From positions 496,001 through 560,000 of the forward strand of contig NC_088324.1 of NCBI RefSeq assembly GCF_910592395.1: a DNA stretch of 64,000 nt, read 5' to 3'. The notes under the pieces are model-generated. The model was not told where the DNA came from, made no database searches, and worked only from the letters and a program-made list of their open reading frames with translations. A program made the translations under genes and the position numbers. Source of the stretch: Lineus longissimus. Taxonomy: Eukaryota > Nemertea > Pilidiophora > Heteronemertea > Lineidae. Shown piece after piece: positions 29,749-62,056 of this stretch (positions are counted from its first letter, which is position 1; every line of letters begins with the position of its first letter).

Positions 29749-29931
29749 GTGTATGAAGTGGTTTCACGTGACGCCATCACCTTGCATGCTGGAGGGATAG
29801 ACAAAAGAAAGCAAGCCCGAAAGACCATGACAGTATTTGATTTATTTAAGTCAGGCACGACAAATCATTGTCCAGCCCTCCAAGAATCTATTCGGTGGAT
29901 TGTAGGCCAATACGAGAGATATTGTAGTTAG
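29749..29931 (+). other. 60-codon frame conserved between duplication copies
   Basis: An open frame (VVSRDAITLHAGGIDKRKQA...) with only two substitutions relative to 44,972-45,154. It has no ATG at its left end and no recognised domain. Conservation may only reflect the recency of the duplication. Confidence 0.2.
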
Positions 29932-30351
29932 ATAGTTCATTCAAATAAAGTGCATTTTTGAACCAAGAGGGGAATTGGTCACTGTAATCAAAGACAATGA
30001 AAGAATTATTTCTACCGGCTGTGCTGTAATTTAGTATGGTCTTTACATCCTAAGAAGGACTTGCTGTAATTAGCATAATTTACGCAATGGAACTCTCTAC
30101 AGAAACTATGATATCAAACATGGATATTTAGGTTAAGGTCGTCAAAAAATTATGCATGTCTTGAACATGATTTAAGGTCATCAAAAAGTTTAGATATGAA
30201 TTATAATGAATTCTAGAGGGTCTATCATCAGAAAATTCTCTTTTCTGATATCCGACATCTCGGAATATACAATGTACGCGAAGATGAGTGAATTATTAAT
30301 TTTAAAGCTAATTGTCTTCAATGGGATTGACCAAGAGAGTTACCTTGCTCG

Positions 30352-33300
30352 CTATTCTAATCTGACGATGTAACAACCTATGTCAGGCTCGTCATCAGCG
30401 GCTTCAATGCCTGGCCCATCTTCCCTCGCGTCGTCACCATGGTTCTCATCACCACGCTCCAGGCGGGACATCCTACCAACGATTGCCGTCATCAACTTGG
30501 CGACTTGATGAGACTTGGCTATGTTGAGTTTCAAGCCTTCCAGCAGATTGACGCTGGGCTGCCAGTAGAACGGTAGGTTGCCCTTGCCGAGGTAATCCTC
30601 AAGTTGGCTGTAGATGATGTAGACCATCTCTGGCAGGCTCCTGTTTGTCTCAAGGAAGTCGTCTATGTTATGGAGGAAGACTGTCTTCAGGAGGTAGCTT
30701 GTAAGGAAGTGACTGACGAAATGTATGACGCCGTTCGTATCTCTAATCACAACGCCACATGCCATAGGTGACCTCAGACACTTTGCTGTGATGTAGGCGT
30801 CTTTGATTCTTGGATCCAAAGGTGCGATTGTTGCAGGTTCTAGATGAGAGAAGGAGATCCGCAACATTCTTTCTCTGTCTTCCTCGGGTAGCAACCGTCC
30901 GTACTCACTGTCCTTGTGTGGCGGTTTCAGGACCAGCCTATACCCACTCTTCCTCAAGGTGTCCTCGTCCATTCGCCAGGTCTTCTTGATAGCATCGTCT
31001 GGCCAATCATCAACATGAAATATCGGTACTATATCCACAGAGATAAGGAGACTGGATGATATATTTTCAAACCTTTTGATAGTCACAGGAACACTGGCCA
31101 ATCCTCTTCTAACATCAGCTTGAGATAAGATGTATCCAGTCCGTTGATAAACACAAACGTCCGCCGTTACCTCACTTTCAGACTCTCCGTTCTGTAGTGC
31201 ATTATCGGACCAATCATCTTGCCAATCATCGGGCCAATTATCTACAGGTAAGGTTGTTACTATATGGTCTGAGACAATGCGTTTTGAAGGTTTATCATCG
31301 GGCCATCTGATAGTCACAGGAACACTGGCACCGCCTCCTCCAGCAACTGCCTCCAAACGGATTTCTCCGCTTTTTTTAGACTCTTGGGCTTTTGTGCTAA
31401 ATTGTAGGGTTTGGCTTTCAATCTCATGGAGTGCTTTACTTGATAAAAACCTGTTCTTAATTTTTCTAATTTGTATATACTTATATCCATGTAAGTTGTC
31501 AACCATTTCGTTTCGAGAGAGATGATTTGGAGATACCAATCTAAGGAAGTCCATTTCATCAGGCAGCTGAACCTTCGTGCCCTCAGCCGAACTTCCGCAT
31601 AACTCTGAACCCTTAACAACCTCCTTCTCCCTTACAAACCTCATGATAGTTTCTGAAACACCACCCTTGATAATATTCACGCTGCCTAGTCCCAGTACAC
31701 AAGATAGTTCTGAAAGTTTGTATCTATACGCGGGTGTAGCATATTGCTCATTTAATCGCGACATGACGTAAGAGAGACTTTGTTCGCAGGAATGTCCTAA
31801 TCGGTTGCTTGCTTGATAATTAAGTTTTGATTGAAAGGGGAAGCATTCATAAGCCTTCAATCCATGGATGTTGGGTCGTTTGCAGTCAAGCCCAGCGATG
31901 ATAAGATATTGATAGATATCTAGGCAACCGGACTCAGCTGCTAGATGAAGCAGTCCTTTTCCATTTACGCTGCAGTTCATGTCAGCTCCAAGCTGATGAA
32001 GTTGTCTAACTGTCCGAAAATGACCACCTGAAACTGCCTTGGCAATAGGCGACCATCCACTGGCATTGGGCAAATCCAATAACTTCCGTGCATCACTGCT
32101 TCCCAAGTATTTTACGATATCGGCATGGCCACACGAAGCAGCAGAATATATAATACTCTCCGACGAAAAGTTTGATGTGGATGTATCTGCTCCACTCCTT
32201 ATTAGGAGTTGGACCACAGAGAGATGACCCTTTATGATAGCATTTTGAAGTGGGGTGTTTCCTTTCAAGTCACGGATTTCTAATGACATCCCGCGTCTAA
32301 AAAGATATTCAACGACCCGTCGTCGACCAAACGTTGCACCAATATTTAATAGCGATCCATAACTAAAACTTCTGGAACAAGCACCTTCTTTCAACAAAAC
32401 GTCAACAATTTCAACATTACCCCATTTAGCTGCGCAAACTATCGGAGTGTCGTTTTCATAGTTACTGACTTCAATAATTGCATCCGCTTTAACTAATAGA
32501 TCCACCACATCCTTATGTCCTTCAGTCGAGGCGATGATGATTGGAGTATCCCCGTCCTTGTCTTTACATTCTATATTCGCCCCCGCTTTAATCAATAGAT
32601 CCACCACCTCTTGGTGTCCATTAATCGAGGCGGTGATGATTGGAGTATTCCCGCTATTGCCTTTACATGCTATATCCGCCCCCGCTTTAATCAATACATC
32701 CACCACCTCTTGGTGTCCTTTTATCGAGGCATTGATGATTGGAGTATTCCCGCCATTGTCTTTACATTCTATATTCGCCCCCGCTTTAATCAATAGATCC
32801 ACCACCTCTTGGTGTCCTATAATCGAGGCGATGATGATTGGAGTATTCCCGCCATTGTCTTTACATTCTATATTCGCCCCCGCTTTAATCAATAGATCCA
32901 CCACCTCTTGGTGTCCATTAATCGAGGCGATGATGATTGGAGTATTCCCGCCATTGTCTTTACATTCTATATTCGCCTTCGCTTTAATCAATAGATCCAC
33001 CACCTCTTGGTGTCCATTAATCGAGGCGGTGATGATTGGAGTATTCCCGTCATTGTCTTTACATTCTATATTCGCCCCCGCTTTAATCAATAGATCCACC
33101 ACCTCTTGGTGTCCTATAATCGAGGCGAAGATGATTGGAGTATTCCCGCCATCGCCTTTACATTCTATATTTGCCCCCGCTTTAATCAATAGATCCACCA
33201 CCTCTTGGTGTCCTATAATCGAGGCGATGATGATTGGAGTAGTCCCGCCATTGTCTTTACATTCTATATTCGCCTTCGCCTTAATCAATAGATCCACCAC

Positions 33301-34929
33301 CTCTTGGTGTCCATTAATCGAGGCGATGATGATTGGAGTATACCCGCCCTCGTCTTTACATTCTATATCCGCCCCCGCTTTAATCAATAGATCCACCACC
33401 TCTTGGTGTCCATTAATCGAGGCGATGATGATTGGAGTATTCAAGTCATTGTCTTTACATTCTATATCCGCCCCCGCTTTAATCAATAGATCCACCACCT
33501 CTTGGTGTCCATTAGTCGAGGCGATGATGATTGGAGTATTCAAATCATTGTTTTTACATTCTATATTCGCCCCCGCTTTAATCAATAGATCCACCACCTC
33601 TTGGTGTCCATTAATCGAGGCGATGATGATTGGAGTATTCCCGTCATTGTCTTTACATTGTATATTCGCCCCCGCTTTAATCAATAGATCCACCACCTCT
33701 TGGTGTCCTATAATCGAGGCGATGATGATTGGAGTATTCCCGCCATTGCCTTTACATTCTATATTCGCCCCCGCTTTAATAAATAGCTCCACCACCTCTT
33801 GGTGTCGATTAGTCGAGGCGATGATGATTGGAGTAATCCCGCCATTGTCTTTACATTCTATATTCGCCCCCGCTTTAATCAATAGATCCACCACCTCTTG
33901 GTGTCCTATAATCGAGGCGTTGATGATTGGAGTATTCCCGCCATTGCCTTTACATTCTATATTCGCCCCCGCTTTAATCAATAGATCCACCACCTCTTGG
34001 TGTCCATTAGTCGAGGCGATGATGATTGGAGTATTCCCGTCATTGTCTTTACATTCTATATTCGCCCCCGCTTTAATCAATAGATCCACCACCTCTTGGT
34101 GTCCATTAATCGAGGCGATGATGATTGGAGTATTCCCGTCATTGTCTTTACATTGTATATTCGCCCCCGCTTTAATCAATAGATCCACCACCTCTTGGTG
34201 TCCATTAATCGAGGCGAAGATGATTGGAGTATTCCCGCCATTGCCTTTACATTCTATATTCGCCCCCGCTTTAATCAATAGATCCACCACCTCTTGGTGT
34301 CCTTTAATCGAGGCGATGATGATTGGAGTATTCCCGCTAATGTTTTTACATTCTATATTCGCCCCCGCTTTAATCAATAGATCCACCACCTGTTGGTGTC
34401 CTTTAATCGAGGCGATGATGATTGGAGTATTCCCGCCATTGTCTTTACATTCTATATCCGCCCCCGCTTTAATCAATAGATCCACCACCTCTTGGTGTCC
34501 TTTAATCGAGGCAATGATGATTGGAGTATTCCCGCCATTGTCTTTACATTCTATATTCGCCCCCGCTATAATCAATAAATCCACCACCTCTTGGTGTCCT
34601 TTAATCGAGGCGAGGATGATTGGAGTATACCCGCCCTCGTCTTTACATTCTATATTCGCCCCCGCTTTAATCAATAGATCCACCACCTCTTGGTGTCCAA
34701 AAGTCGAGGCGAAGATGATTGGAGTATTCCCGCCATTGTCTTTACATTCTATATTCGCCCCCGCTTTAATCAATAGATCCACCACCTCTTGGTGTCCAAA
34801 AGTCGAGGCGAAGATGATTGGAGTATACCCGCCTAGGCTTTTACATTCTATATTCTCCCCGGCTGTAATCCATCGAGCCACAAGATTTTTGTCTCCTTTA
34901 ATCGAGGCGATGATGATTATGAGATCCAT
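30352..34929 (-). CDS. ankyrin-repeat / Mab-21 (cGAS-like receptor) fusion protein 1
   Basis: An uninterrupted 1,525-codon frame. Residues 1-822 are an array of 33-residue ankyrin repeats, 24 almost identical (core GNTPIIIASI, HQEVVDLLIKAGANIECK). Residues about 823-1,033 hold six or seven degenerate repeats. Residues about 1,050-1,480 are a Mab-21/cGAS-like nucleotidyltransferase: GSS at 1,112-1,114, E1125 and D1127 in PDEMDF, a third acid D1299 in LLISVDIVPIF, then RISFSHLE near 1,357-1,364, LTSYLLKTVF and LPFYWQPSVNLL. In the family, the GS motif and three acids bind ATP/GTP and metal, and active members make cyclic dinucleotides that activate STING after ligand sensing. No zinc-ribbon insertion is seen. 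The C-terminus is acidic. A segment of about 77 residues containing the third-acid region is duplicated (ASVPVTI at 1,201 and 1,278). Start chosen at 34,929 because it opens the first partial ankyrin repeat; an upstream non-coding exon is possible. Confidence 0.9.
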   Translation of the reverse strand: MDLIIIIASIKGDKNLVARWITAGENIECKSLGGYTPIIFASTFGHQEVVDLLIKAGANIECKDNGGNTPIIFASTFGHQEVVDLLIKAGANIECKDEGGYTPIILASIKGHQEVVDLLIIAGANIECKDNGGNTPIIIASIKGHQEVVDLLIKAGADIECKDNGGNTPIIIASIKGHQQVVDLLIKAGANIECKNISGNTPIIIASIKGHQEVVDLLIKAGANIECKGNGGNTPIIFASINGHQEVVDLLIKAGANIQCKDNDGNTPIIIASINGHQEVVDLLIKAGANIECKDNDGNTPIIIASTNGHQEVVDLLIKAGANIECKGNGGNTPIINASIIGHQEVVDLLIKAGANIECKDNGGITPIIIASTNRHQEVVELFIKAGANIECKGNGGNTPIIIASIIGHQEVVDLLIKAGANIQCKDNDGNTPIIIASINGHQEVVDLLIKAGANIECKNNDLNTPIIIASTNGHQEVVDLLIKAGADIECKDNDLNTPIIIASINGHQEVVDLLIKAGADIECKDEGGYTPIIIASINGHQEVVDLLIKAKANIECKDNGGTTPIIIASIIGHQEVVDLLIKAGANIECKGDGGNTPIIFASIIGHQEVVDLLIKAGANIECKDNDGNTPIITASINGHQEVVDLLIKAKANIECKDNGGNTPIIIASINGHQEVVDLLIKAGANIECKDNGGNTPIIIASIIGHQEVVDLLIKAGANIECKDNGGNTPIINASIKGHQEVVDVLIKAGADIACKGNSGNTPIITASINGHQEVVDLLIKAGANIECKDKDGDTPIIIASTEGHKDVVDLLVKADAIIEVSNYENDTPIVCAAKWGNVEIVDVLLKEGACSRSFSYGSLLNIGATFGRRRVVEYLFRRGMSLEIRDLKGNTPLQNAIIKGHLSVVQLLIRSGADTSTSNFSSESIIYSAASCGHADIVKYLGSSDARKLLDLPNASGWSPIAKAVSGGHFRTVRQLHQLGADMNCSVNGKGLLHLAAESGCLDIYQYLIIAGLDCKRPNIHGLKAYECFPFQSKLNYQASNRLGHSCEQSLSYVMSRLNEQYATPAYRYKLSELSCVLGLGSVNIIKGGVSETIMRFVREKEVVKGSELCGSSAEGTKVQLPDEMDFLRLVSPNHLSRNEMVDNLHGYKYIQIRKIKNRFLSSKALHEIESQTLQFSTKAQESKKSGEIRLEAVAGGGGASVPVTIRWPDDKPSKRIVSDHIVTTLPVDNWPDDWQDDWSDNALQNGESESEVTADVCVYQRTGYILSQADVRRGLASVPVTIKRFENISSSLLISVDIVPIFHVDDWPDDAIKKTWRMDEDTLRKSGYRLVLKPPHKDSEYGRLLPEEDRERMLRISFSHLEPATIAPLDPRIKDAYITAKCLRSPMACGVVIRDTNGVIHFVSHFLTSYLLKTVFLHNIDDFLETNRSLPEMVYIIYSQLEDYLGKGNLPFYWQPSVNLLEGLKLNIAKSHQVAKLMTAIVGRMSRLERGDENHGDDAREDGPGIEAADDEPDIGCYIVRLE
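32464..34839. repeat. 99-bp coding tandem repeat (24 ankyrin units)
   Basis: DNA-level repeat underlying the ankyrin array of gene 1. Stretches such as GATCCACCACCTCTTGGTGT recur nearly unchanged in every unit. The opposite strand is also almost free of stops, which creates a long artefactual frame. Near identity at silent sites indicates homogenisation rather than selection alone. Confidence 0.95.
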
Positions 34930-35085
34930 GTAATTTTTGCACTTTATATGTACTCCAGTTCACAGAATGAGAGGAGGAATCTGATTAGCCAAAAATAACC
35001 GAATGCTGCTGCATCGAACAGAGCAAGTAGGCGCCGTGTGGCTGGCATCGTGGACTGTTCTTGGGAGCTGGAAATCAAACATTTC

Positions 35086-35880
35086 CATAATATAGTGCGT
35101 ATCAAAAAAAGGTAATCCAAATTCATGGAGTTAATATGCCAATACTATTTTGTTCAACAAGCTGATTAACATGTGGTTTACTAATGAAGAGGAGATCCTC
35201 AGCTTTCCAATGATACCATTCTTGCATTAATTGCGGTTTCACATGACCGAGTAAATTGTAACTGAAAATGACGAGCTCAAATCAAAAAATGTCCAAGTTT
35301 GGTGAATTGAAATAAACGATTACAAGCTGATCTCTCACTTTTTTCCTTTGGGGATACATGAAAAACAAGGTGTTTGCGACTTCTCCCGTAATCTTAATGA
35401 CTTGGAGGCCGAATTCAACACGAAGTGGATGATTTACGCAGGAATCGCGCAGTGATCAGACAAGCAGTTCAGGGCATGCTCTATCGCTGTGAACTTTGTG
35501 TTGCAAGAGGCGGAGGGCATGTTGAACGTGTGGGTGCATAAATACAAGATAAGAAGATCTCTGAATAAAGCCAAATAATTCCTGAGAAAATCGTGTTCGT
35601 TTTGATCTTTTTAAGTTTGTAAACGTACAATTTGAACGTATTCATTCAACTTGCACAAACTTGGAAATTTTCGATTTGAACTCGTCATTTTCTATTACAA
35701 TTTACTCGGTCATGCGAGACCGTAATAACGCAAGAATGGTATCAATGGAAATCTGAGGATATCCTCTTCAATAGTAGACCACATGTAGCTTCTGAAACTA
35801 AATAGCCTTGGAATATTAACCCCTTGACTTTAGATTACCTTTTGTTGATACGCACTGTATAATGCAGTGCATTCTCGGAG
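35086..35880. repeat. large inverted repeat at the 5' flank of ankyrin gene 1
   Basis: The left arm (about 35,086-35,330) and right arm (about 35,620-35,880) are imperfect reverse complements. Shared landmarks include GGATTACCTTTT, TTGATACGCACT, ACATGTGGTYTACTA, GATCCTCAG / GATATCCTCAG and TGACCGAGTAAATTGTAA. The spacer is about 290 bp. The left arm tip contains a TATA-like ACTATATTATGG about 160 bp upstream of the ankyrin ATG (minus strand). The right arm mirrors it as ACTGTATAATG on the plus strand. The element also exists in the right duplication copy (62,113-62,830), partly deleted there. Confidence 0.7.
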
Positions 35881-38800
35881 TTGAAGCATCTTTATATGCA
35901 GAGAATTGCGATGATATAATATGTTGCCACCTGCTAAAGACAGTACAATCAACAAGTCCAATTAATTTAATATAATCCTGCAAAAAATGGTGAGTTAAAA
36001 GAATCTCTCGTACGCGACAAAAAATAGTAACAGCTCCACAGACGAGCGATTTAGATTGGTGAAAGCCGCGATTTAAAGCACATGCGACGGTTATCACTTG
36101 TTTGGGTCAGTGCTTTACCAGGCGATTACAAGTTTGCCTGCAATGAAACACGAGATCTTAATGTCGCACAGATCAAGATAAGAAATTGAGACCGCTGCCT
36201 CGAAAATGAGGCCCAGTGTAAAATCATTTGTCTTAATGAACTATTTCACGCAGAAGCAGTGAGATAAGTCCAACCTAGGAAGAGTCAAGGCTAATCAAAT
36301 TACAAAAGCCCCCTATATTCAAAACTGAGTGTTACCTCACCAATAGCTTGTTTGAACAACTTTCGTCTTTCGCGTTACAGTCGAATGTGTTTGAATCAGT
36401 TATATCATACTGTTTTAGTGTCAACCAATCGAATGAAGTCCCTTAGGAATGATGTTTTTTACAATGAAAAAAATAATAAACACATACCGAAGCCACTTCA
36501 TATCATGCAGTCACGTGACGGGCGTACCAGACGCCTCAATGCCAATGCTATCGCTTCCGTATACCAGGTACGTAGGAGCTGGGCCTAGGAGGGCAGGTCG
36601 GAAAGAAAAACGGTCTGGAACTCCGTAGTAAAATTCGAGCAACAAGAGTGCGTTTTTAGACTGAGGAGGCACACAGAAATGCTCAGGTTGTTGCAGTCGC
36701 TCACCAATTATTACTTTTCTTTTCCAGTCTACTTCAGCAACCTCGGCCTCATCGTTCGTATCTCACATGCTTATATGCATGCCTTGATGGACGGTAATCA
36801 GAAGTGCCGATGCCATTTTATGACTGAGAGAGCGCGATATGAAACGAAACATTGCTAAATTGTTCAAGCTATCTTTATGCTTCTTGTACGATACAGTGCC
36901 AACCATGACAAGCCATTAGGCCAATACGGGTCGTCGTCTTGGCTAGGACTCTAAGATACCACAACATGGGAAGGAATGTCGGATCGCTGCGCGAGTAGTG
37001 GACGCAAACATTTTTACAACAGTAGTGTTGTGATCTGTGAATTATGTTGGACTGTGTCAATGCACGGAATGTCACTTAAAAACGCATAAACCATCTCGAA
37101 ATAATTCATTACATATTTCGACACTTTGACACGCATCTTTTTCTAGTGAATATACAGACCTATATCATCGCTTATTGTGACGAACTCGGATATCAGTCCG
37201 CTAGAGAAACCCAGCCCGAGAACAACCCATTTACCGCCATTTCCTGGACACAGCACACCCTCGCCGTGCGAGGCTAATCATTCCACATTTTACTATGCTC
37301 CAATGATTACCCTGGCCCCAAATGTTTAATCACTATTACAAGAAAATTGCAATACTTTATCCAGCAAAAATATCGCATTTTCTCTCGATAGAAAATTTCA
37401 AAATGTTTAGAAATTGAGATTCCATTAAAAAGATCCGTCATATTCGGTCAATTAATACCCTTTTTTGATAATGTTTGTCGTCACTATTTTGCGAAAGGCT
37501 ACACACTTTGCGGCAGGCGATTTGGATATTGCCTGTTCACTCAGTCTGCAGCCAATCAACAAGCAGCCTGAGATTTGAATTTGTTGTGATTTCTTTGCGT
37601 GCAAATTGGACACAGCAGACGGGCTAACCACGTGACATGGAGTCTGGAACATGTATAGGTCACGCCTGCTGATTTACAATTATTAACATTCAATTGTAGA
37701 AAGAATAAGGCGGCGCCGTCAGCTTGAATATACATACTCCGGATGCTAATTTTTGAGTTACGCTCCGCCTCTGACAAGTTGTAAACACGTCAGGAAATGG
37801 CGATCGCACGCTGACATTTAGCGAAAATTCCCAACTTCCATCGGTGATTATGAAATAATAATACAACGACACGGAGAGATACACAAGTATGTATCTAATA
37901 AGAGTCTTAGTTACGTGATACGCGCGAGATATTTGATTGTCTGTGGTTTTGTTGGGTGCAATAAGCGATTTTATTGGGGAATGTTTTCGTGTGCGTGGTC
38001 ACGACGTATACATAATGGTGTTTTGCATAGCATTCCCGATCGGCTGAAGCCGTTGAGCTGAAACAAATCGATTCACCGCCTACACTTTTACTCCGATTTT
38101 GCTGAAAATTGGTGACAAAGAGGCTTAATGTATTCCGCACAAATTCGTAGGAAGCGAATTTCGAAAAAAATGATTAAAATGTTTTTTCTAAATAAAATTG
38201 GCCGTTGCTAGGGATGGTTGCTAGGCATATGCTGCCACAGACATATCCACGGAAAAACTGACAATAGGTGGTCTGCACTGCGTTAGCGACGACCCAATAA
38301 TCACCCATGAAAGAGGTGTACGTACCACGGTCTAATTAAATCCGGGACGCACCCGCTGAAAATCACGGGAATTAGTTGTTAATGAGGTCGATCACTTGCT
38401 CACGACCACAATGGCCTTCAAAAGCGTTGAAATAAACATTAGCTTGTTTACAGGTATGTCCTTGCTAACCAACCCAACCTCTTCTATCCCAATACCGAAT
38501 CGTGACCAGAATCCCGGCGAATACATGGTCTAGGCCTGCTATGTATCGCTATGCACTATAGAACGGAACAAGCTCGCGGAGATTTGAAATGGGTTTGTTG
38601 GAAGGGGCGATATGCGTTTTAGAAAGCTAACTTCAACTTGCCAAGCTACGATATAGTTTGTCAATGCCTATATTGTCCCTTTTTTGTTTAAATTCAGTAC
38701 ATGTTTATTGACTTTAGGACAACCAATTGGATATGACTTAGTAGAAATGTATTCCTCCAAAGTTTCGGCCTCGAATGTAATTGTTTGATTGGGAATATCA

Positions 38801-40841
38801 TGTGAGGTTCTCTTAAGGGTCAGGAAAAGTAAAGAGAAGAATATTACCTTCAGATCCTATTTGAGTCCTCGTGCTCGGGGTAATCAGCATCGTTCCAGTG
38901 GCAGCAGCTGTATGAGGAGGAAGTCTTAGGTTCTTGGATTCGATCTGGACGGTGGAATTGTAGACACAATAACCGCACAAATATCAGATTCAAAGGTTTG
39001 TCTTTCCGTCGGCTGAATCGTCCGCAGAGATCTTATTCGCATACACAGTATCAACATCAAAATGCATTATCAAAATGCTGATGAGGTCGAAACTCGTACA
39101 TTCAGAAAGTTCTGTTGAATATGAAATACGGTCACGAACTGTCTCTGCGCTCTTGAAGGAAACAATATACAAGTTACCTTATCCTCTAATAGCTGAAGTT
39201 ACCTACATACACACGAATTTTCGTTTCGCGACCCGAAACTTTATTGACCTAACTAGTTCCATAAAGATTTAGTCCAGTGAAACAACGTAGTTACGGCTTG
39301 GTCTTATTTCCAATTATTGCGATAGCAAAATATAAAATTGTCATGAGAAATTCGTCAAATACGATGCAACTTGTTTCAACTTTGAAACGAATGTGTCATC
39401 CCTGTCCTAGTGCGAGACTGAAAATCCCTGTCGATTTGATGAATTTTCAAAACAACACCTCAAAATACTATCATTTGGATTAGAACTTAGATGTTATCAT
39501 GCAATACTTCGGGGCTTCTCATTGCAAGCAATGGGCTAGTGGTTTTTTTATGTATTTGGGGCAGGCTTTCATATCATAGCTTTATCATTTGTGATCTAAA
39601 TAACATGTAAAGCAGTACGCAAGGTATCTGAAGCGAATACTACGGTTGGCTGAACATGGTGACCTGCATTCACAGTAGATGAACGTCAATACCAACTCCT
39701 CGGTTGATTTGTCGCGGAGCTGCATTGTTAAAACACAAATTATGACCCACAACGTACAGTCAATATATCTCATACATGTCATACCTTGCCCCAAATTTGA
39801 ATTTTTATACTAAGCTTACATTATGGCCTCGCATACATTTGACAGGCATCAATATCAACTCCCATTCTATATCGAAGAATGTCACAAAGTTGACCTGCCG
39901 CTGGGATAAACATGTATACATCTTTCATTTAGGCCATCAGCTAATTTCCTTAGTTATGTATGCAAGCCCTTCCATCAAAATGGAATAGCTAGGAACTCAC
40001 GTTTAAAAAACACCACCAAACACTTTTTTATTCGCAAATGTGACTTGCTAACTTTTTTATTTGACGCTTTAAAGTCACGGCAGGCAAGATTGAAGATTGC
40101 CTGTAGATGCTCTAACCTTCAATCGCAGCTCATCCTGACTCTCGCGAAATGTCTCGACTCCATCCTCGCACAGCGGGCATTTGTATCCTCCCTATGATAT
40201 ATTATTCAATCAATTTCAGAAACCTTTCAAAGGCCTACTATATGAGGATGGCCGACTCTGATTAACCCCTCCTGTCTCATCAGGCTTTTTGGGTTTTGAA
40301 AAACCGCCTGGCCTGGAAAGGTGCACTTGATGACAATCACAACAGGAAGAGACGGACATTTCGCTCTGGCAGGGAATCTGGCCCTGTCTTGGCTAATACG
40401 ATAAAACAAAACAACAAAGGTACTCATGTTGTTGTATTTTGTACGGCCTCTACGCATGACAAGATTTTTTTCCCGAACAGTGAGTGTTTTCTGATATTAA
40501 GCAATGTAGGGATGGGCCAAGGAACGGTAAGACGCTTTCTCAGGCGCACACTCGTACCGGGACAGCTGGTTGCATCCGAACTGACTCAAATTTCGTTATG
40601 TTATTTTTATCGCCCATCCAAGTGTCACGGGAAAGGTGATTCTGATGTGGTCGGAATATTCGCTAGCTCTGCGCTAGCAGGTTCTATAGAACTGTAGAGA
40701 AGTGCTAAACAAACTCTTAGATATACGACACGGGCATTGCCCGGGACATGACGACATTGTCACAACCTTGGAATCGTCCTCGGTTACAGCCAACGACAAC
40801 CGATAGGTCTCATAAAAAGGACGAGGTCCACAATAAAATTG
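35881..40841. other. non-coding, partly duplicated region
   Basis: 35,881-36,908 and 38,298-38,378 match 62,830-64,000. 36,909-38,297 is present only here; near its ends it carries GGGTCGTCG and the reverse CGACGACCC, so it may be a small inserted element. 38,379-40,841 is unique within the window. No supported gene. Confidence 0.4.
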
Positions 40842-43800
40842 AATTAGCTACGCCGTGGTATCTGCTGCATATTCGAATCGAGTCGTTTCGGGGGGGGGGG
40901 GGGGGGTCGGTGCAATTTCCAAAACGGGCATCCTTGCCTCACTTGTCCAGTCCTTACTTCGAGAGAAGAGCGTCTCGTCCATGTTCATTTAAAGGCTTCG
41001 TCCACAGTTACGGTGCCCTCCAGTCTCTGTTAATTACTATAATAGCTATACATATATATCGAACTCGGATAACAATGTTTGTCATTTTCTTGCCTCAGGC
41101 TATAATCTAATTATTGAAATAATAGGGAGGTTTCGCAATCTTTATAAGCAACATAGTACGAGGTACGAAGGTCTGTACGTAGTATCATCAAGTCCTGGGC
41201 GAATCCATTTACGGGACACTTGTAAATAGGCTTTCACACTTAGTAGTACATGGACTCAGCGAACTCATCAAAGACAGTCGTCGATAAAATACATCTATCA
41301 TAATGGTTACATACTTAGTACACTTCGTAAGTGTTGCAAATCCTGTCCCTCATGTTAAGAATACAAACAGCATGATAACTAAACTAAACGGTGCAAAAGC
41401 AACAATAAACATACATAGTGATATCCAAGTACGTGCTGCCTCTAAGGCTCACATTGACTACAGAGAGTATCAAAGAGATAGAAACATCTGAGACGACCCC
41501 CCCCCCCGCCCTCATATGGAAATGTGAGTGTTTTCAATGAGTCCGGTGTAGAAGTTTGAAATGTCCCAGGATAGAATTTCCGGGGGAGCATGGATTCTAT
41601 TATGCTCTTTAATCTCTGACCTATCGACGGTAATGTCACCGAAAGAACCATAATGTCATAATCTGACAAAATACAATAGGGTGGATGGTTTTTCCCTCGG
41701 ACATTTTCTACTTCTACACCGGTTAGGATGAATCTGTACCGAATGACATAAAGTGTCTAACCATATTTCGAGTCTTATTGCTTGAAGACGGACACGAATT
41801 TTATGAACATTCCATTTACAAGCAATATCTCCCCCTATCTGTGCATTACCGAACTGTAATCAAAATGATTTGCGAAATTGCACATGATTACATGTACACA
41901 TATAATGCCTTGAATTAGCCGGACTATAAAATATAATCGCAACGGACTCCGGTTCAGAAACACACAGTAAAGCCAGGACTTTCTTTTTTTAAGTCTCGCC
42001 TGTCGCAAGTGTTGAGACGGGTAGACAGCGCCTACTAGAATAGGGGGTGAGAACTGAAGGACTCGTTCGTCCAACGAGGCAAAACCACCATTGATTTGTT
42101 AAAGACTTTCATCAGTTCATTTGCCAAAGTTTGCCCACGTCGCACCAATTACTGCGGGAAGAATTGAATCTTAGATGTGGATATGATATTTCGGACAGTC
42201 TGGCGACAAACTTGTGGAAATTAAAGTGGTCGTTGACCGCGGATTTTTAAAGATAATCGGAAAAGCTTCTCGTTGATAGGTCTGAATACTGCAACCTATG
42301 AATATTCAATGGTGGTCTTATCTCGAACTGAAATTTTACTAAGGTAAATCTAATAACACCAAACCACTTTAATAAAACCACTCTTGCCACTTTCAAGTTT
42401 TTAAAACACCGGATTTGTATCCTAACAAATCTTTCCACCCAAAACCCACCTGTTTGGCACAAAAACCATTGTTTACAACCCAAAATCAACCATTCACAGC
42501 GACTCCCTATTTTTACACATGCCATGATGAAATTCTCATTAGGAAACTCTGAATCAAAGGAGATTTGCATTGAGCAACTTCGACCAAGGACACCTGGGCC
42601 TTCAAAAATCAAAATCTCACTGAAAATGTTTACAATAACTTTCATATGGTTCGCAAGGACACTTCGCTGGAATGGTTGCAATGAGTGATCAAGTCGCAGT
42701 TGTTTTGTCACGTTAACCCACTCACTACATTACCAGTCATTACCCAGCCTTTACCGCCATAAAATCTTTTCAACCTTCATTAAATAATTATCTTTCATAA
42801 CAAATTCGCGTATCGGCCAAAATAATTCACGTTAGAATAACCTTCTACGGTCTCATTATGGTCACGTAAAAATCGCCACTGCAGCGAATATCTAAACGGT
42901 ACATATATTGGGAAAAGATACACACATGTAGCTTAAATAAAACTGAATTTTATGATCAGTCATTAAGACCAGCGAGTTGGCTTAAACAACGTTAGAGAGA
43001 AACTCAAAATAGTTTGAAGTCTAAAAAGACACCCAAACAATTGTTGGAAAGCTGAAGGTGCACTAAGATTAAGGGTTGACTATAGGTACCGCCATTTTGG
43101 CTAGAAATTGCAATCAAAAAGCGCTTAGAACACCTTCAAAATGTAGTGAATGCTCATTTAAAACCCTGGAGGCTGTTCTCTGGAAAGCAATAAACAGACT
43201 CCAGCCCTTGAAATGAGCTTTCACTATGTTTTGAAAGAGCTCTAAAGGCTTTAGGATTTGGAGGACTCGACAAAATGGCGGTACCTATTGTCAACCCTTA
43301 AGGTGAAACTATATAGTCACTCTTTATTATGTTAATGTATTAGGAACACCGGATTCAAACACCAACAAATAGGACAAGATAATGGCTCATATGAAAGAGA
43401 CTGGCGGGTGATTTTATCTAAAGCGCTATATGTACTGTACATGTACACAAAGCTTTCTGCATAAAATTGAAGTAAAAGCACTTGCTTGTCTTTGTCATAT
43501 AACATGTTGTTCGGACGCAACGCAAACTATTATGTTTTCCGAGTAACACTTTTACCAGTTTGTGGATATTTTGGATGACTTCTTGTTGACTGGCAACATG
43601 GAGGCACTATAGTTTCACCTTAACGAGTATTCAATCTATATCCATCCACAAGTTTGCAGTCATTCTGTAATGAGAGTCATTACAAGCGTATATAAAACCG
43701 TAATCACTTGATCATTTAGAACTTGTGACAGGGCCTACCAGGCTTCACACTCTTAAATGTTACTCACAAAATATAGGAAATAATGAATGTGACTCTCTTG

Positions 43801-45558
43801 CAATACAACGTTATGATAGTAATAGACTGGCTTCAAACAGCTTGCAATCTCTAGGCCTTCTGACTTCTACCATATAATATTGTGACACATATAATTATAA
43901 AAAGTTACACCGAACATAATACAATATAAGTCGATACAAGTTTATACATGTAAATACATGACAATACAATTTATACAATTCAATACATAAGGATATTAAG
44001 GTTATAAGGTAGCTACCCTACCTCATGCAATTACAATATCGATACAAGTTAACATGTCAATACAAGATATACCAGTCCATACCTTTGTTCACCCATGCAG
44101 TCAGCATATCAAAGGGTGTAAGTAACTCATAAGTACTATGTAAGGAATTGAGTGCAACATCCAACTTCCTGTGTCATAATACCGATCTGAGAGTGTCTGG
44201 ATATGTAAGCCAAGCCCCATGTTGATAATATGCGCATTGTCGTTGGATGCCATCCAACATTCAACTCAATCGAGATGAACAATGCCAATGTGTCGCCTTT
44301 GTATCAATTTCATAGTTAAAAGTAGAAAATAGATTGTAAAACTTCAGAAATCATCTTAAATAAGACAGGGTTGCATTTTTTACCAAAATCTGAAAGTTCT
44401 GATACTTTTTTTTCAGAACTGGTGAACATTTGGTATATCATCTCCGTGATGTGTCCCCAACCTCGGAAAGTCTACAGTTTTGCAATTTCATCTCTGAATA
44501 ACGGGAGGTGTAAGAGGTGGAGGGGGTCTGAATAATTTCAGAAGTTTTCTAAAATGTTACGGTTGTGCTTGTTTTCCTTTGTACACCACACGATCCCTCA
44601 CCATTCTCTCTCTCAAAGTCAACATAGCAGCTATTTTGAGCCCGGTGTCATTTCAAGAACGAATTCCCTACCACTTGGCTTTGAAGGTCCTGACGCACTT
44701 GAGGCTTTCGATGTCGAACCAAAGTCCGAGATACCCTGCCAGAGACTCTCTCCGACCGCTGCGCCTGTCGCGTCGGCCCAACTCGCACACATGCACTCTC
44801 GTGGTTTGAACTGGCGGGGCCGGGTGAGGCCAGGGAATAACCATAGATGTGGTTACACCGGAGCATCCGTCTCGCATACAAAGTGTTCATCGGGGTGAAG
44901 ATTACTGGAAATAAACTTATTAATATCAGGCACATTGTACTTCTGAAAGCGATTACTCAACACTATTTATTGTGTATGAAGTGGTTTCACGTGACGCCAT
45001 CACCTTGCATGCTGGAGGGATAGACAAAAGAAAGCAAGCCCAAAAGACCATGACAGTATTTGATTTAATTAAGTCAGGCACTACAAATCATTGCCCAGCC
45101 CTCCAAGAATCTATTCGGTGGATTGTAGGCCAATACGAGAGATATTGTAGTTAGATAGTTCATTCAAACAAAGTGTATATATGCATTTTTGAACCAAGAG
45201 GGGAATTGGTCACTGTAATCAAAGACAATGAAAGAATTATTTCTACCGGCTGTGCTGTAATTTAGTATGGTATTAACATACTAAAAAGGACTTGCTGTAA
45301 TCAGCGTTATTTACGCAATGGAACTCACAAACGAAACTATGATATCAAGCATGGACGAAGCATGTCTTGAACATAATTTGAGGTCATCAACAAGTTTATA
45401 TTATAAATTATAATGAATTCTAGATGATCTATCATCAGAAAATTCTCTTTTCTGATATCCGACATCTCGGAATATACAATGTACGCGAAGATGAGTGAAT
45501 TATTAATTTTAAAGCTAATTGTCTTCATTGGGATTGACCAAGAGAGTTACCTTGCTCG
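40842..45558. other. 3' flank of ankyrin gene 2, mostly non-coding
   Basis: Matches 24,966-30,351 of the left copy. G-run at 40,890-40,906 and C-run near 41,497. The 60-codon frame at 44,972-45,154 is the partner of 29,749-29,931. No supported gene. Confidence 0.4.
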
Positions 45559-48500
45559 CTATTCTAATTTGACGATGTAACAACCTATGTCAGGCTCGTC
45601 ATCAGCGGCTTCAATGCCTGGCCCATCTTCCCTCGCGTCGTCACCATGGTTCTCATCACCACGCTCCAGGCGGGACATCCTACCAACGATTGCCTTCATC
45701 AGCTTGGCGACTTGATGAGACTTGGCTATGTTGAGTTTCAAGCCTTCCAGCAGATTGACGCTGGGCTGCCAGTAGAACGGTAGGTTGCCCTTGCCGAGGT
45801 AATCCTCAAGTTGGCTGTAGATGATGTAGACCATCTCTGGCAGGCTCCTGTTTGTCTCAAGGAAGTCGTCTATGTTATGAAGGAAGACTGTCTTCAGGAG
45901 GTAGCTCGTAAGGAAGTGACTGACGAAATGTATGACGCCGTTCGTGTCTTTAATCACAACGCCACATGCCATAGGTGACCTCAGACACTTTGCTGTGATG
46001 TATGCGTCTTTGATTCTTGGATCCAAAGGTGCGATTGTGGCAGGTTCTAGATGAGAGAAGGAGATCCGCAACATTCTTTCTCTGTCTTCCTCGGGTAGCG
46101 ACCGTCCGTACTCACTGTCCTTGTGTGGCGGTTTGAGGACCAGCCTATACCCACTCTTCCTCAAGGTGTCCTCGTCCATCTTCCAGGTCTTCTTGATAGC
46201 ATCGTCTGGCCAATCATCAACATGAAATATCGGTACTATATCCAAAGAGATAAGGAGACTGGATGATATATTTTCAAGCCTTCTGATAGTCACAGGAACA
46301 CTGGCCAATCCTCTTCTAGCATCAGCGTGAGATAAGATGTATCCGGTCCGTTGATAAACACAAACGTCCGCCGTTACCTCACTTTCAGATTCTCCTTTCT
46401 GTAGTGCAGAATCGGACCAATCCTCTTGCCAATCATCGGGCCAATCATTTACAGGTAAGGTTGTTACTATATGCTCTGAGACAATGCGTTTTGAAGGTTT
46501 ATCATCGGGCCATCTGATAGTCACAGGAACACTGGCACAGCCTCCTCCAGCAACTGCCTGCAAAAGGATTTCTCCGCTTTTTTTAGACTCTTGGGCTTTT
46601 GCGCTAGATTCTAGGTTTTGGCTTTCACCCTCATGGAGTGCTTTACTTGATAAAAACCTGCTCTTAATTGTTCTAGTTTTTATATACTTATATCCATGTA
46701 ATTTATCAACCATTTCGTTTCGAGAGAGATGATATGGAGATACCAATCTAAGGAAGTCCATTTCATCAGGCAGCTGAACCTTCGTGCCCTCAGCCGAACT
46801 TCCGCATAACTCTGAACCCTTAACAACCTCCTTCTCCCTTACAAACCCCATGATAGTTTCTGAAACACCACCCTCGATAATATTCACGCTGCCTAGTCCC
46901 AGTACACCCGATAGTTCTGAAAGTTTGTATCTATACGCGGGTGTAGCATATTGCTCATTTAATCGCGACATGACGTAAGAGAGACTTTGTTCGCAGGAAT
47001 GTCCTAATCGGTTGCTTGCTTGATAATTAAGTTTTGATTGAAAGGGGAAGCATTCATAAGCCTTCAATCCATGGATGTTGGGTCGTTTGCAGTCAAGCCC
47101 AGCGATGATAAGATATTGATAGATATCTAGGCAACCGGACTCAGCTGCTAGATGAAGCAGTCCTTTTCCATTTACGCTGCAGTTCATGTCAGCTCCAAGC
47201 TGATGAAGTTGTCTAACTGTCCGAAAATGACCACCTGAAACTGCCTTGGCAATAGGCGACCACCCACTGGCATTGGGCAAATCCAATAACTTCCGTACAT
47301 CACTGCTTCCCAAGTATTTCACGATATCGGCATGGCCACACGAAGCAGCAGAATGCATAATACTCTCTGACGAAGGGTGTGATGTGGATGTATCTGCTCC
47401 ACTCCTTATTAGGAGTTGGACCACTGAGAGATGACCCTTTATGATAGCATTTTGAAGTGGGGTGTTTCCTTTCAAGTCACGGATTTCTAATGACATCCCG
47501 CGTCTAAAAAGATCTTCAACGACCCGTCGTCGACCAAACGTTGCACCAATATTTAATAGCGATCCATAACTAGAACTTCTGGAACAAGCACCTTCTTTCA
47601 ACAAAACGTCAACAATTTCAACATTACCCCATTTAGCTGCGCAAACTATCGGAGTGTCGTTTTCATAGTTACTGACTTCAATAATTGCATCCGCTTTAAC
47701 TAATAGATCCACCACATCCTTATGTCCTTCAGTCGAGGCGACGATGATTGGAGTATCCCCGTCCTTGTCTTTACATTCTATATTCGCCCCCGCTTTAATC
47801 AATAGATCCACCACCTCTTGGTGTCCTTTTATCGAGGCGATGATGATTGGAGTATTCCCGCTAATTTTTTTACATTCTATATTCGCCCCCGCTTTAATCA
47901 ATAGATCCACCACCTCTTGGTGTCCTTTAATCGAGGCGATGATGATTGGAGTATTCCCGCCATTGTCTTTACATTCTATATCCGCCCCCGCTTTAATCAA
48001 TAGATCCACCACCTCTTGGTGTCCTTTAATCGAGGCGATGATGATTGGAGTATTCCCGTCCTTGTCTTTACAATCTATATTCACCCCCGCTTTAATCAAT
48101 AGATCCACCACCTCTTGATGTCCTTCAATCGATACACACCCTATAGGAGTTCTTCCCTCATCGTTGGCATGATCTATATTCGCCCCCGCTTTAATCAATA
48201 GATCCACCACCTCTTTGTATCCATTAATCGAGGCAATGATGATTGGAGTATCCCCGTCCTTGTCTTTACATTCTATATTCGCCCCCGCTTTAATCAATAG
48301 ATCCACCACCTCTTGGTGTCCTTTAATCGAGGCGATGATGATTGGAGTATTCCCGCCATTGTCTTTACAATCTATATTCACCCCCGCTTTAATCAATAGA
48401 TCCACCACCTCTTGATGTCCTTCAATCGATACACACCCTATAGGAGTTCTTCCCTCATCGTTGGCATGATCTATATTCGCCCCCGCTTTAATCAATAGAT

Positions 48501-49737
48501 CCACCACCTGTTGGTGTCCTTTAATCGAGGCAATGATGATTGGAGTATTCCCGCCATTGTCTTTACATTCTATATTCGCCCCCACTTTAATCAATAGATC
48601 CACCACCTCTTGGTGTCCTTTAATCGAGGCAATGATGATTGGAGTATTCCCGCCATTGTCTTTACATTCTATATTCGCCCCCGCTTTAATCAATAGATCC
48701 ACCACCTCTTGGTGTCCATTAATCGAGGCAACGATGATTGGTGTATTCCCGCTAATGCTTTTACATTCTATATTCGCCCCCGCTTTAATCAATAGATCCA
48801 CCACCTCTTGGTGTCCTTTAATCGAGGCGATGATGATTGGAGTATCCCCGTCCTTGTCTTTACATTCTATATTCGCCCCCGCTTTAATCAATAGATCCAC
48901 CACCTCTTGGTGTCCTTTAATCGAGGCGTTGATGATTGGAGTATCCCCGTCCTTGTCTTTACATTCTATATTCGCCCCCGCTTTAATCAATAGATCCACC
49001 ACCTCTTGGTGTCCTTTAATCGAGGCGATGATGATTGAAGTATTCCCGCTAATGCTTTTACATTCTATATTCGCCCCCGCTTTAATCAATAGATCCACCA
49101 CCTCTTGGTGTCCTTTAATCGAGGCGTTGATGATTGGAGTATCCCCGTTCTTGTCTTTACAATCTATATTCACCCCCGCTTTAATCAATAGATCCACCAC
49201 CTCTTGGTGTCCTTTAATCGAGGCAATGATGATTGGAGTATTCCCGCCATTGTCTTTACATTCTATATTCGCCCCCGCTTTAATCAATAGATCCACCACC
49301 TCTTGGTGTCCTTTAATCGAGGCAATGATGATTGGAGTATTCCCGCCATTGTCTTTACATTCTATATTCGCCCCCGCTTTAATCAATAGATCCACCACCT
49401 CTTGGTGTCCTTTAATCGAGGCGATGATGATTGGAGTATTCCCGCCATTGTCTTTACATTCTATATTCGCCCCCGCTTTAATCAATAGATCCACCACCTC
49501 TTGGTGTCCTTTAATCGAGGCGATGATGATTGGAGTATTCCCGCCATTGTCTTTACATTCTATATTCGCCCCCGATATAATCAATAAATCCAGCACCTCT
49601 TGGTGTCCATTAATCGAGGCGATGATGATTGGAGTATTCCCGCCATTGTCTTTACATTCTATATTCGCCCCCGCTTTAATCAATAGATCCACCACCTCTT
49701 TGTTTCCTATAGCCGAGGCGATGATTAGGATATCCAT
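45559..49737 (-). CDS. ankyrin-repeat / Mab-21 (cGAS-like receptor) fusion protein 2
   Basis: An uninterrupted 1,392-codon paralogue. Residues 1-689 carry 20 almost identical 33-residue ankyrin repeats after a partial first one; two units have the distinct form NDEGRTPIGCVSIEGHQ. Degenerate repeats follow to about residue 900. The last 492 residues align without gaps to protein 1. The catalytic elements are present: GSS at 979-981, E992 and D994 in PDEMDF, and D1166 in LLISLDIVPIF. Differences from protein 1 are scattered substitutions, for example IIEGGVSETIMGF for IIKGGVSETIMRF. The degenerate first copy of the internal duplication has SEHIV where protein 1 has SDHIV. Total length differs by 133 residues, about four ankyrin units. 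Both copies being open over more than 4 kb argues that both are functional. The 12.2-kb insertion begins 179 bp upstream of this ATG. Confidence 0.9.
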   Translation of the reverse strand: MDILIIASAIGNKEVVDLLIKAGANIECKDNGGNTPIIIASINGHQEVLDLLIISGANIECKDNGGNTPIIIASIKGHQEVVDLLIKAGANIECKDNGGNTPIIIASIKGHQEVVDLLIKAGANIECKDNGGNTPIIIASIKGHQEVVDLLIKAGANIECKDNGGNTPIIIASIKGHQEVVDLLIKAGVNIDCKDKNGDTPIINASIKGHQEVVDLLIKAGANIECKSISGNTSIIIASIKGHQEVVDLLIKAGANIECKDKDGDTPIINASIKGHQEVVDLLIKAGANIECKDKDGDTPIIIASIKGHQEVVDLLIKAGANIECKSISGNTPIIVASINGHQEVVDLLIKAGANIECKDNGGNTPIIIASIKGHQEVVDLLIKVGANIECKDNGGNTPIIIASIKGHQQVVDLLIKAGANIDHANDEGRTPIGCVSIEGHQEVVDLLIKAGVNIDCKDNGGNTPIIIASIKGHQEVVDLLIKAGANIECKDKDGDTPIIIASINGYKEVVDLLIKAGANIDHANDEGRTPIGCVSIEGHQEVVDLLIKAGVNIDCKDKDGNTPIIIASIKGHQEVVDLLIKAGADIECKDNGGNTPIIIASIKGHQEVVDLLIKAGANIECKKISGNTPIIIASIKGHQEVVDLLIKAGANIECKDKDGDTPIIVASTEGHKDVVDLLVKADAIIEVSNYENDTPIVCAAKWGNVEIVDVLLKEGACSRSSSYGSLLNIGATFGRRRVVEDLFRRGMSLEIRDLKGNTPLQNAIIKGHLSVVQLLIRSGADTSTSHPSSESIMHSAASCGHADIVKYLGSSDVRKLLDLPNASGWSPIAKAVSGGHFRTVRQLHQLGADMNCSVNGKGLLHLAAESGCLDIYQYLIIAGLDCKRPNIHGLKAYECFPFQSKLNYQASNRLGHSCEQSLSYVMSRLNEQYATPAYRYKLSELSGVLGLGSVNIIEGGVSETIMGFVREKEVVKGSELCGSSAEGTKVQLPDEMDFLRLVSPYHLSRNEMVDKLHGYKYIKTRTIKSRFLSSKALHEGESQNLESSAKAQESKKSGEILLQAVAGGGCASVPVTIRWPDDKPSKRIVSEHIVTTLPVNDWPDDWQEDWSDSALQKGESESEVTADVCVYQRTGYILSHADARRGLASVPVTIRRLENISSSLLISLDIVPIFHVDDWPDDAIKKTWKMDEDTLRKSGYRLVLKPPHKDSEYGRSLPEEDRERMLRISFSHLEPATIAPLDPRIKDAYITAKCLRSPMACGVVIKDTNGVIHFVSHFLTSYLLKTVFLHNIDDFLETNRSLPEMVYIIYSQLEDYLGKGNLPFYWQPSVNLLEGLKLNIAKSHQVAKLMKAIVGRMSRLERGDENHGDDAREDGPGIEAADDEPDIGCYIVKLE
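47671..49650. repeat. 99-bp coding tandem repeat (20 ankyrin units)
   Basis: DNA-level array underlying ankyrin gene 2, the same repeat family as 32,464-34,839 but with four fewer units and a different unit order. Three successive units (repeats 3-5) encode identical residues, and a block containing the NDEGRTPIGC variant occurs twice (repeats 14 and 17), indicating multi-unit duplication. Confidence 0.95.
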
Positions 49738-49915
49738 GTAATTTTTGCACTTTATATGTACTCCAGTTCACAGAATGACAGGAGGAATCTGATTAGCAAA
49801 AAATAACCGAATGCTGCTGCATCGAACGGAGCAAGTTGGAGCCGTGTGGCTGGCATCGTGGACTGTTCTTGGGAGCTGGAAATCAAACATTTCCATAATA
49901 CAGTGCGTATCAAAA

Positions 49916-51037
49916 TGAAATGGCCAGGGCCATTGTGCTCACCTCATGTGGAGGAAAGATGGATAAAGAGCATGGTATTGTGTCATGTAGTGTTAGGTTT
50001 GATGTAGGTCCAAGCAATTACAATTTCCCCAAAATGGCCAATTTACATAACATTCGACCCCTGTGACCTTGAAAAGTAGGTCAAATCAAAGAAGACCCGG
50101 GTTACACATTGAATGGTTGTTAGAATTAGATGTACCTATGATATAAAATTGGTGCCAATCGGGCAAGTCATTACTAGGAATAATGGCATTTTGAAGAATT
50201 TAGGATTTGGCCCCCTCCCTGGAGGCCAAACGGCAAATCAGATCGCACCAAACTTCGGTACCTGAGATCACCTGACCAAGGGGTACATGTGTACTTAATT
50301 TGTGATCAATAGTCATTGCAGTTAAGAAACGTGCCATAGTTACGGCCTGACGGCCAATTTACGCCATTTGACCTCTGTGACCTTGACAAGAAGGTCAAAT
50401 TAAAAACCTGTGTGACATATACTGTATGGTGGTTAGATGTACCCATGATATCAAATTGGTGGCAATCGGGCAAGAAGTTAAGGAATAATCACATTTTTAA
50501 GGTTTTTGGATTTTGCCCCTGGTGGTCAAGTGGTGAATCATATTGGACCAAACTTCGATCCCTGAGATCACCTGACTAAGGGGTAAATGTGTACCAAATT
50601 TGGTATCAATAGTCATTGCAGTTTATAAACGTGCCATCGTTACATCCTAACGGCCAATTTACACCATTTGACCTCTGTGACCTTGAAAAGGAGGTCAAAT
50701 CAAAAACCCGGAGGATATATGATGCACCTTTGCTAGAAGTACCTACCATATTTTTTTCAAAATTTCCCGACTACTATTAAGGGAGATATTGCATATTTTC
50801 ACTTTTAACGTTTGGCCCCCTGGTGGCCAAACCATGAAACGAATCGGACCGAAACTTGGTCTCCAAGGTGTCATGACATAAGGGTACATGTGTACCAAGT
50901 TTCAAGTCAATAGCTCTAACAGTTACGAAACGTGCCCTGCTAACGGACGACGGACGACGACGACGACGACGACGACGACGGACGACGGACGCCACGGTAT
51001 GGGATAAGCTCACCTCTGCTAAGAGGTGAGCTAAAAA
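49916..51037 (+). mobile_element. hairpin-ended ~1.12-kb repeat, copy A
   Basis: Begins TGAAATGGCCAGGGCC and ends GAGGTGAGCTAAAAA. It is internally built of three diverged units of about 300 bp, each with a GGCCAATTTAC...TGACCTCTGTGACCTTG segment, followed by a (GAC)n tract at about 50,945-50,990 and a terminal hairpin at 51,007-51,032. The start (GCTCACCTC) and end (GAGGTGAGC) form short subterminal inverted repeats. These features fit a non-autonomous Helitron/Helentron-like rolling-circle element, but canonical TC...CTRR ends are not clear. No coding capacity. Confidence 0.7.
51007..51032 (+). other. terminal hairpin of copy A
   Basis: Perfect 10-bp stem, AGCTCACCTC with GAGGTGAGCT, and loop TGCTAA, immediately followed by AAAAA. 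It is comparable to 3' terminator hairpins of rolling-circle transposons. Confidence 0.65.
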
Positions 51038-51049
51038 CTGATAGACTCA

Positions 51050-52840: not shown

Positions 52841-52845
52841 ACGAC

Positions 52846-53079: not shown

Positions 53080-53305
53080 ACAATTTACACGCCCCAATGG
53101 TATCCAGTTTACTGCAGTCAACAAATGGAAGGTATACTTCCGAGCCCACCAATTAGATAAAAAAATGCGCTCTTTGGAAGACCCTGCATTTTCCCATTAA
53201 TGAGACAGAATTGGACAGGGCCATGAGGCCCCAACCAATGGTGATGTCAAACATTTAAAAGAACGTATCCAAAATTGTCCCAATGAAAATAACAATGCTC
53301 TATAC

Positions 53306-61982: not shown

Positions 61983-62056
<74 letters not shown>

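Follow-up and report, generated by a model that had tools for sequence, protein, structure and literature searches.

Ankyrin-array genes with a Mab-21/cGAS-like domain in Lineus longissimus: an expanded family of candidate sensors

We analyzed a 64-kb stretch of the Lineus longissimus genome (the window: contig NC_088324.1, here called C17, positions 496001-560000, in an assembly of 391 Mb and 30 contigs) that carries two genes, A and B, each encoding a long ankyrin array and a Mab-21/cGAS-like domain in one uninterrupted open reading frame (ORF). We give an even chance to the reading that A and B are ankyrin-fused nucleotidyltransferases (NTases) of a recent expansion that serve as repertoire-like sensors, with arrays that would bind varied ligands and gate the synthesis of a nucleotide messenger. 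The original prediction had proposed two intact genes with both parts in one frame, and the ORFs were recovered exactly as it gave them. Both genes are real and, far from being an isolated pair, are two of 13 genes of the same type (window-type genes) seen in a larger family.

The two genes are laid out alike: homogeneous 99-bp ankyrin units come first, then an ankyrin tail of divergent repeats, and the Mab-21 region forms the C-terminal part. Upstream of the ATG the reading frame stays open for a further 10 codons. In the paralogue frames an own methionine precedes the first ankyrin repeat, as judged by eye, which fits the start codon predicted originally. An additional exon in the 5' untranslated region would be possible.

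The nucleotidyltransferase region

The C-terminal part of the domain was recognized directly. The Pfam model Mab-21_C (PF20266) matched both proteins above its cut-off (Table 1) and places them in the Mab-21 family. As predicted, GSS, E-x-D and a third Asp within IS(V/L)DIV are present in both copies, and RISFSHLE and SYLLKTVF follow downstream (GSS at residue 1112 in A and 979 in B, IS(V/L)DIV at 1296 and 1163, RISFSHLE at 1357 and 1224, SYLLKTVF at 1411 and 1278). The GS, E-x-D and third Asp residues do not vary in any of the 12 window-type genes of the alignment, of which A and B are two.

The prediction of a full Mab-21 domain stood directly for the C part, which PF20266 covers, but for the NTase part only by way of paralogues. 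PF03281, the Pfam model of the NTase, listed neither window copy's domain even at an expectation value (E) of <= 1, and A and B are not among its 25 matches in the genome. It scored above cut-off in all five paralogues scanned and in four of the six members of A2, a profile made of A, B and four paralogues. A2 in turn matched 42 PDB sequences at E <= 1 with GS, E-x-D and the third Asp in register; the best match was 4jlx (E 1.1e-12, A2 positions 66-376), and a cGLR1 was found at E 1.7e-12 (A2 positions 58-376). Alone, the gene A domain matched the cGLR1 chain with an E of 0.00075, the match being confined to the third-Asp and C-lobe part. In BLASTP it matched the L004 paralogue at E 3e-64, with the GS..E-x-D stretch as a second piece (5e-9).

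In the structures of cGAS and cGAS-like receptors (cGLRs; 4jlx, 8gjw, 6ct9), the GS, E-x-D, third Asp, RISFSHLE-like and SY..KT segments align with A2. A and B differ from them in their long ankyrin array, wider catalytic gap and near-neutral charge. MB21D2 (7lt1, matched by A2 at E 0.0011) and MAB21L1/2 share the Mab-21 family with A and B and are not known to have an ankyrin array. Structure prediction of the Mab-21 region from an alignment of only two sequences gave a predicted local distance difference test score (pLDDT) of 30.5 and a predicted template-modelling score of 0.19, too poor a model to be of use. Ankyrin residues 1-429 alone gave a pLDDT of 48.7, likewise too low to judge; the lack of regular ankyrin helix pairs in that model carries no weight at such a score.

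The interval between D1127 and D1299 of gene A, and likewise its counterpart in gene B, spans 171 residues (169 by cGLR motif counting; 93-107 in four relatives measured) because of an internal duplication of 77 residues, the module. In both genes part of the sequence between ASVPVTI and WPDD occurs twice at a distance of 231 bp, gene A having 22 identical bp, and the upstream copy has His, by eye, at the column of the catalytic Asp. Of the 12 window-type genes in the alignment, L046, on C8, lacks the module and the other eleven have it. The 13th gene, L045 (C8:20.328 Mb), is a 2444-aa frame with at least two modules in tandem and a partial second NTase. We considered whether the presence of the module is enough to account for the failure of PF03281 to match, and rejected this because L046, without it, still misses (no match listed at E 0.01) and L043, with it, matches at 29 bits. 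Removal of the module as an in-frame intron appears unlikely, since the GT/AG choice examined by eye breaks the frame.

Selection was tested in the 12 window-type genes, leaving out L045 for its internal NTase duplication, with each codon change counted once and p values uncorrected. The C-lobe had 19:25 nonsynonymous:synonymous changes (constraint, p 2.1e-6), and in the GSS..ExD stretch amino-acid changes were below neutral (5:6, p 0.024). Residues 1133-1200 had an excess of nonsynonymous changes (60:8, p 0.016). The module gave 37:5 (p 0.050), residues 1014-1107 33:18 (p 0.052) and residues 1285-1330 13:8 (p 0.061). Residues 1133-1200 and the C-lobe differed at p 5e-7 in a Fisher test, and A compared with B alone gave 21:2 in 1154-1273 versus 3:7 in 1334-1513 (p 0.0008). 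Strong purifying selection acts on the C-lobe; the segment that follows E-x-D is fast-changing.

Ankyrin arrays and the gene family

Genes A and B encode ankyrin-repeat proteins: their tandem 33-residue repeats match Pfam ankyrin models, with scores of up to 748 bits (Ank_2). A pattern count gave 31 repeat anchors in A and 27 in B, in close agreement with the 27-31 repeats predicted. In-frame units so nearly identical and so numerous, found together with a match to a curated domain, would not arise by chance. Mean pairwise amino-acid identity over all units is 83.2% in A and 80.4% in B, and four successive units at residues 63-194 of gene B are nearly identical. For the unit counts, 24 of the 25 units listed for A and 20 of the 21 for B were used, the last and most divergent unit of each array being dropped. 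Not one amino-acid unit is common to the two genes and the units do not pair off in order, in contrast to the flanking pieces of A and B, which are about 93-98% identical. The ankyrin arrays of A and B turn over.

Unit positions 2, 3, 5, 13, 14 and 33 are the surface set that is randomized in designed ankyrin repeat proteins (DARPins). Over the 44 units of A and B, mean entropy at these six positions was 1.33 bits versus 0.37 elsewhere (permutation p 0.0003), positions 13 and 33 being only modestly variable. The proportion of nonsynonymous differences (pN) at the surface positions was 0.25 versus 0.10 for synonymous ones (pS); elsewhere pN was 0.067 versus a pS of 0.084. In a second ankyrin-Mab-21 subfamily (L009-L013, C17 285k-912k), repeats of two types alternate and a short tandem repeat stands at the C terminus. 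The type 1 repeats of this subfamily gave a surface entropy p of 0.027, with pN 0.222 and pS 0.158, and its type 2 repeats a p of 0.0018, with pN 0.205 and pS 0. The variation in the arrays falls for the most part on the face that ankyrin repeats canonically use for binding, and the earlier proposal that the array is the ligand-binding part is a reasonable one in this light.

A genome search with PF20266 gave at least 66 Mab-21_C matches, at least 48 of them in open frames of more than 600 aa, part of which were inspected. An internal stop lies within the match in 3 of the 66, and the longest open frames reach 3205 aa. Pfam found ankyrin together with Mab-21 in the two window genes, in four of six locus pieces and in the five paralogues, in each of which ankyrin, PF03281 and PF20266 all exceed their cut-offs within a single frame; no ankyrin was found by Pfam in the stretches scanned of the L045 and L032 pieces.

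In an unrooted tree of 27 domains, with several long branches and outer placements unsure, 20 ankyrin-labelled rows fall on one side of a branch (support 99/98); labels of rows without a Pfam scan rest on near-identity or reading by eye. L001 (C9), presumably the MAB21L-like gene of this genome, lies outside the ankyrin group. Gene A groups with a gene at C17:340k (97/96) and the gene at 236k with that at 355k (94/93); the placement of gene B is not resolved in this tree. These groupings and the similar spacings of 222k/236k, 340k/355k and 527k/542k suggest that A and B belong, as a pair, to a block that is itself repeated. Elsewhere, an 843-aa frame (L025, C2:8.353 Mb) has Mab-21_C followed by TPR-like repeats, as read by eye. 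In viral contigs, none of 38 pattern matches to relatives was confirmed.

Surroundings of the two genes

The coordinates of both genes, of their parts and of the duplication units in which they lie are collected in Table 1. The insertion of 12 kb that lies 5' of gene B (49916-62107, or 49913-62019 as also delimited) is one we take to be Helitron-like. It has direct repeats of 1.08 kb, 98% identical, near both ends, and its ORFs gave PIF1 helicase, Pif1_2B/UvrD_C_2 and Ssb-like OB matches. Three near-identical 240-aa frames lie in tandem on the minus strand at 3894-4616, 5855-6577 and 9174-9896; the one that was scanned matches Laminin_G_3. A THAP domain frame (45.9 bits) is found at 8362-8682 (-). 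Exons of Ras-family (Rho-like) GTPases occur in opposite orientation at 14508-16446 (-) and 19929-23288 (+). A 54-bp minisatellite of 45.7 copies, with long ORFs on the other strand, lies between the two plus-strand GTPase exons, and a 35-bp minisatellite of 52 copies occupies 17313-19133. A tRNA scan and an Rfam scan (gathering threshold) of the 64 kb gave no matches.

Table 1. Positions of genes A and B, their parts and the surrounding duplication (numbered from the first letter of the window)
Feature	Position	Strand	Details
Gene A, ankyrin array and Mab-21/cGAS-like domain	30352..34929	(-)	1525 aa, single uninterrupted ORF
Gene B, ankyrin array and Mab-21/cGAS-like domain	45559..49737	(-)	1392 aa, single uninterrupted ORF
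Gene A, homogeneous ankyrin array	32484..34918	(-)	99-bp unit, 24.6 copies (Tandem Repeats Finder)
Gene B, homogeneous ankyrin array	47691..49725	(-)	99-bp unit, 20.6 copies (Tandem Repeats Finder)
Gene A, divergent ankyrin tail, residues 823-1033	31831..32463	(-)	A versus B ratio of nonsynonymous to synonymous substitution rates (dN/dS) 0.60
Gene A, GSSAEGTKVQLPDEMD, GS loop and E1125/D1127	31549..31596	(-)	Motif positions; family profile aligned to cGAS
Gene B, GSSAEGTKVQLPDEMD, GS loop and E992/D994	46756..46803	(-)	Motif positions
Gene A, fast-evolving NTase segment, residues 1133-1200	31330..31533	(-)	60:8 nonsynonymous:synonymous, 12 genes
Gene A, 77-residue module, residues 1208-1284	31078..31308	(-)	Tandem partial duplication of third-Asp strand region
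Gene B, 77-residue module	46285..46515	(-)	Sequence comparison
Gene A, third catalytic Asp, D1299	31033..31035	(-)	Alignment
Gene B, third catalytic Asp, D1166	46240..46242	(-)	Alignment
Gene A, Mab-21_C (PF20266), residues 1407-1467	30529..30711	(-)	31.6 bits, cut-off 24.1
Gene B, Mab-21_C (PF20266), residues 1274-1334	45736..45918	(-)	32.2 bits, cut-off 24.1
Duplication unit with gene A	24980..39095	.	Pieces about 93-98% identical to gene B unit, with gaps
Duplication unit with gene B	40845..64000	.	Homology extends to about 64721, past the window end
12-kb insertion, 5' flank of gene B	49916..62107	.	Absent from gene A unit

Relation to known systems, likely function and alternatives

The original prediction had called the architecture undescribed, and this claim has to be given up: ankyrin-fused cGLRs, including those of the coral S. 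pistillata, have been reported (Li et al., 2023; PMC9980059). A and B share with the cGLRs of that paper the fusion of an animal cGAS-like domain to ankyrin repeats and the high copy number in some invertebrates, which exceeds 200 in two bivalves. They differ in a spacing that lies outside its motif, and in the text of that paper available to us we found neither the sequence or variation of an array nor a core module of 77 residues. A search of the literature, largely of open main text, found no arrays or modules of this kind described in cGLRs, and the text of PMC9334734 and PMC13319465 available to us has no ankyrin-fused cGLRs. In oyster, TRADD-N/Mab-21-like cGAS/TPR proteins (PMC8195603) likewise put a cGAS-like domain on repeats in an expanded invertebrate family; the partners described there are TPR and Death-type domains, of which Pfam found none in the window genes. 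The architecture is known; the scale of the family and its pattern of variation appear unusual.

The nearest functional analogy would be with fungal NOD-like receptors (NLRs) that have conserved ANK, TPR or WD repeats, described in a paper whose author we take to be Dyrka. The features in common, as given there (PMC4986451), are near-identical repeats, variation in array length and variable residues on the concave face of the ankyrin repeats. The partner domain here is an NTase and the host is not a fungus; NACHT or NB-ARC gave no match in the window genes (Pfam families at E <= 0.001). The positive selection reported for the fungal repeats (PMC4986451) was not upheld for the window arrays. 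The repeat criterion of that paper is more than 85% identity over at least 100 aa by T-reks, and the four near-identical units of gene B might pass it locally.

Judged from their sequences, A and B most likely function as sensors in the manner of cGLRs, and the ankyrin array would be the part in which recognition is diversified; the members of the family are possibly intracellular sensors. The ankyrin solenoid would bind its ligand via the variable face, with protein favoured over nucleic acid, and binding would relieve or order the NTase. The enzyme would then make a cyclic or linear nucleotide messenger, which may be read by a receptor such as STING. The members of the family differ in the length of the array, in the order of its repeats, in the residues of the binding face and in one segment of the enzyme, and would form a sensor repertoire with a common output. 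Ligand binding by the array, catalysis, the messenger and an immune role are all steps that we infer. A further-reaching version is tentative and rather doubtful: one animal lineage would have turned cGLRs into dozens of protein-sensing receptors, with fast-turning DARPin-like arrays before a conserved messenger synthase, recognition being diversified by repeat shuffling, the variable segment and the in-core module while the output stays constant.

A number of points weigh against the sensor reading. The literal cGLR motif, h[QT]GS X8-20 [DE]h[DE]h X50-90 h[DE]h (Li et al., 2023), fails in A and B, which have Cys before GS and the D-to-D gap of 171, with all catalytic letters present. Structural homology by AlphaFold2 is among the criteria of the same paper. 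Membership of the cGLR superfamily has been based on clade and PF03281 (PMC10732462). By homology we class A and B as ankyrin-fused members of the Mab-21/cGLR superfamily and avoid calling them cGLRs because the literal motif is not matched. A profile of five window-type sequences reached only E 0.0016 and 0.005, on the third-Asp side and C-lobe, and the module lies within the core of the NTase. Unit positions 1 and 10, outside the six-position surface set, are variable as well. With derived codons counted once, the surface excess is not significant in A and B (25:4, p 0.42) or in type 1 repeats (9:2, p 0.58), and diversifying selection on the A and B arrays is thereby not upheld; only the type 2 repeats were significant, surface versus their own framework (15:0 versus 17:11, p 0.008). 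Fast divergence between tandem repeats has, moreover, been described as general (Persi, 2016; PMC5120217). The six regions of the enzyme test were drawn after the sliding windows had been seen, residues 1133-1200 being chosen post hoc. The isoelectric point (pI) of the domain, 6.1-6.2 in the window copies, 8.25 in gene A without the module and 5.9-8.5 in seven ankyrin-fused relatives, would argue neither strongly for nor against nucleic acid.

Against this background three other explanations have to be considered. It is unlikely, in our estimate, that A and B are nucleic-acid sensors of the cGAS type, in which the NTase domain would bind DNA or RNA and the array would only oligomerize, localize or recruit partners. 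The fast segment at 1133-1200 corresponds in the alignment to the part of cGAS directly behind E-x-D, which presumably carries part of the DNA-contact surface, and would suit such a sensor. The Zn-thumb pattern of cGAS is, however, not evident by eye in the A2 alignment, the domain is not strongly basic by the pI values above, and the variation in the array clusters on the face that binds partners. The ligands known for cGLRs are dsDNA or dsRNA, those of others being unknown (Li et al., 2023), which agrees with nucleic-acid sensing. We put at a similarly low level the probability of a pseudoenzyme scaffold that keeps the catalytic residues, makes no messenger and acts by binding, its core disabled by the 77-residue duplication. 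A triad that is unchanged in all 12 window-type genes aligned, the low count of amino-acid changes in GSS..ExD and the strongly constrained C-lobe argue against a dead enzyme. The module inserted just before the third-Asp strand, the multiple modules and partial second NTase of L045, the PF03281 miss in the window copies and a relative, L032, whose examined stretch shows no GS/E-x-D segment point the other way; messenger synthesis is not established for MAB21L1/2 either (PMC9980059).

Least probable, and in our view quite improbable, is a young birth-and-death family under relaxed constraint, with arrays and NTase segment drifting, many copies unexpressed and no common sensing function. Recent tandem and segmental duplication, the codon-once result for the A and B arrays and a whole-tail dN/dS of 0.76 between A and B would be expected of it. 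The rarity of stops inside the Mab-21_C match, the very long open frames and a constraint that is both strong and localized are at odds with it.

If the sensor reading is correct, an ankyrin-array binding surface would give a testable case for protein-sensing cGLRs; the cGLR ligands named by Li et al. (2023) are nucleic acids or unknown. Repeat shuffling may then be a way in which an animal builds a repertoire of receptors, as has been described for NLRs of fungi, and the tandem module in the conserved NTase core would be a natural test of how far this fold tolerates insertion.

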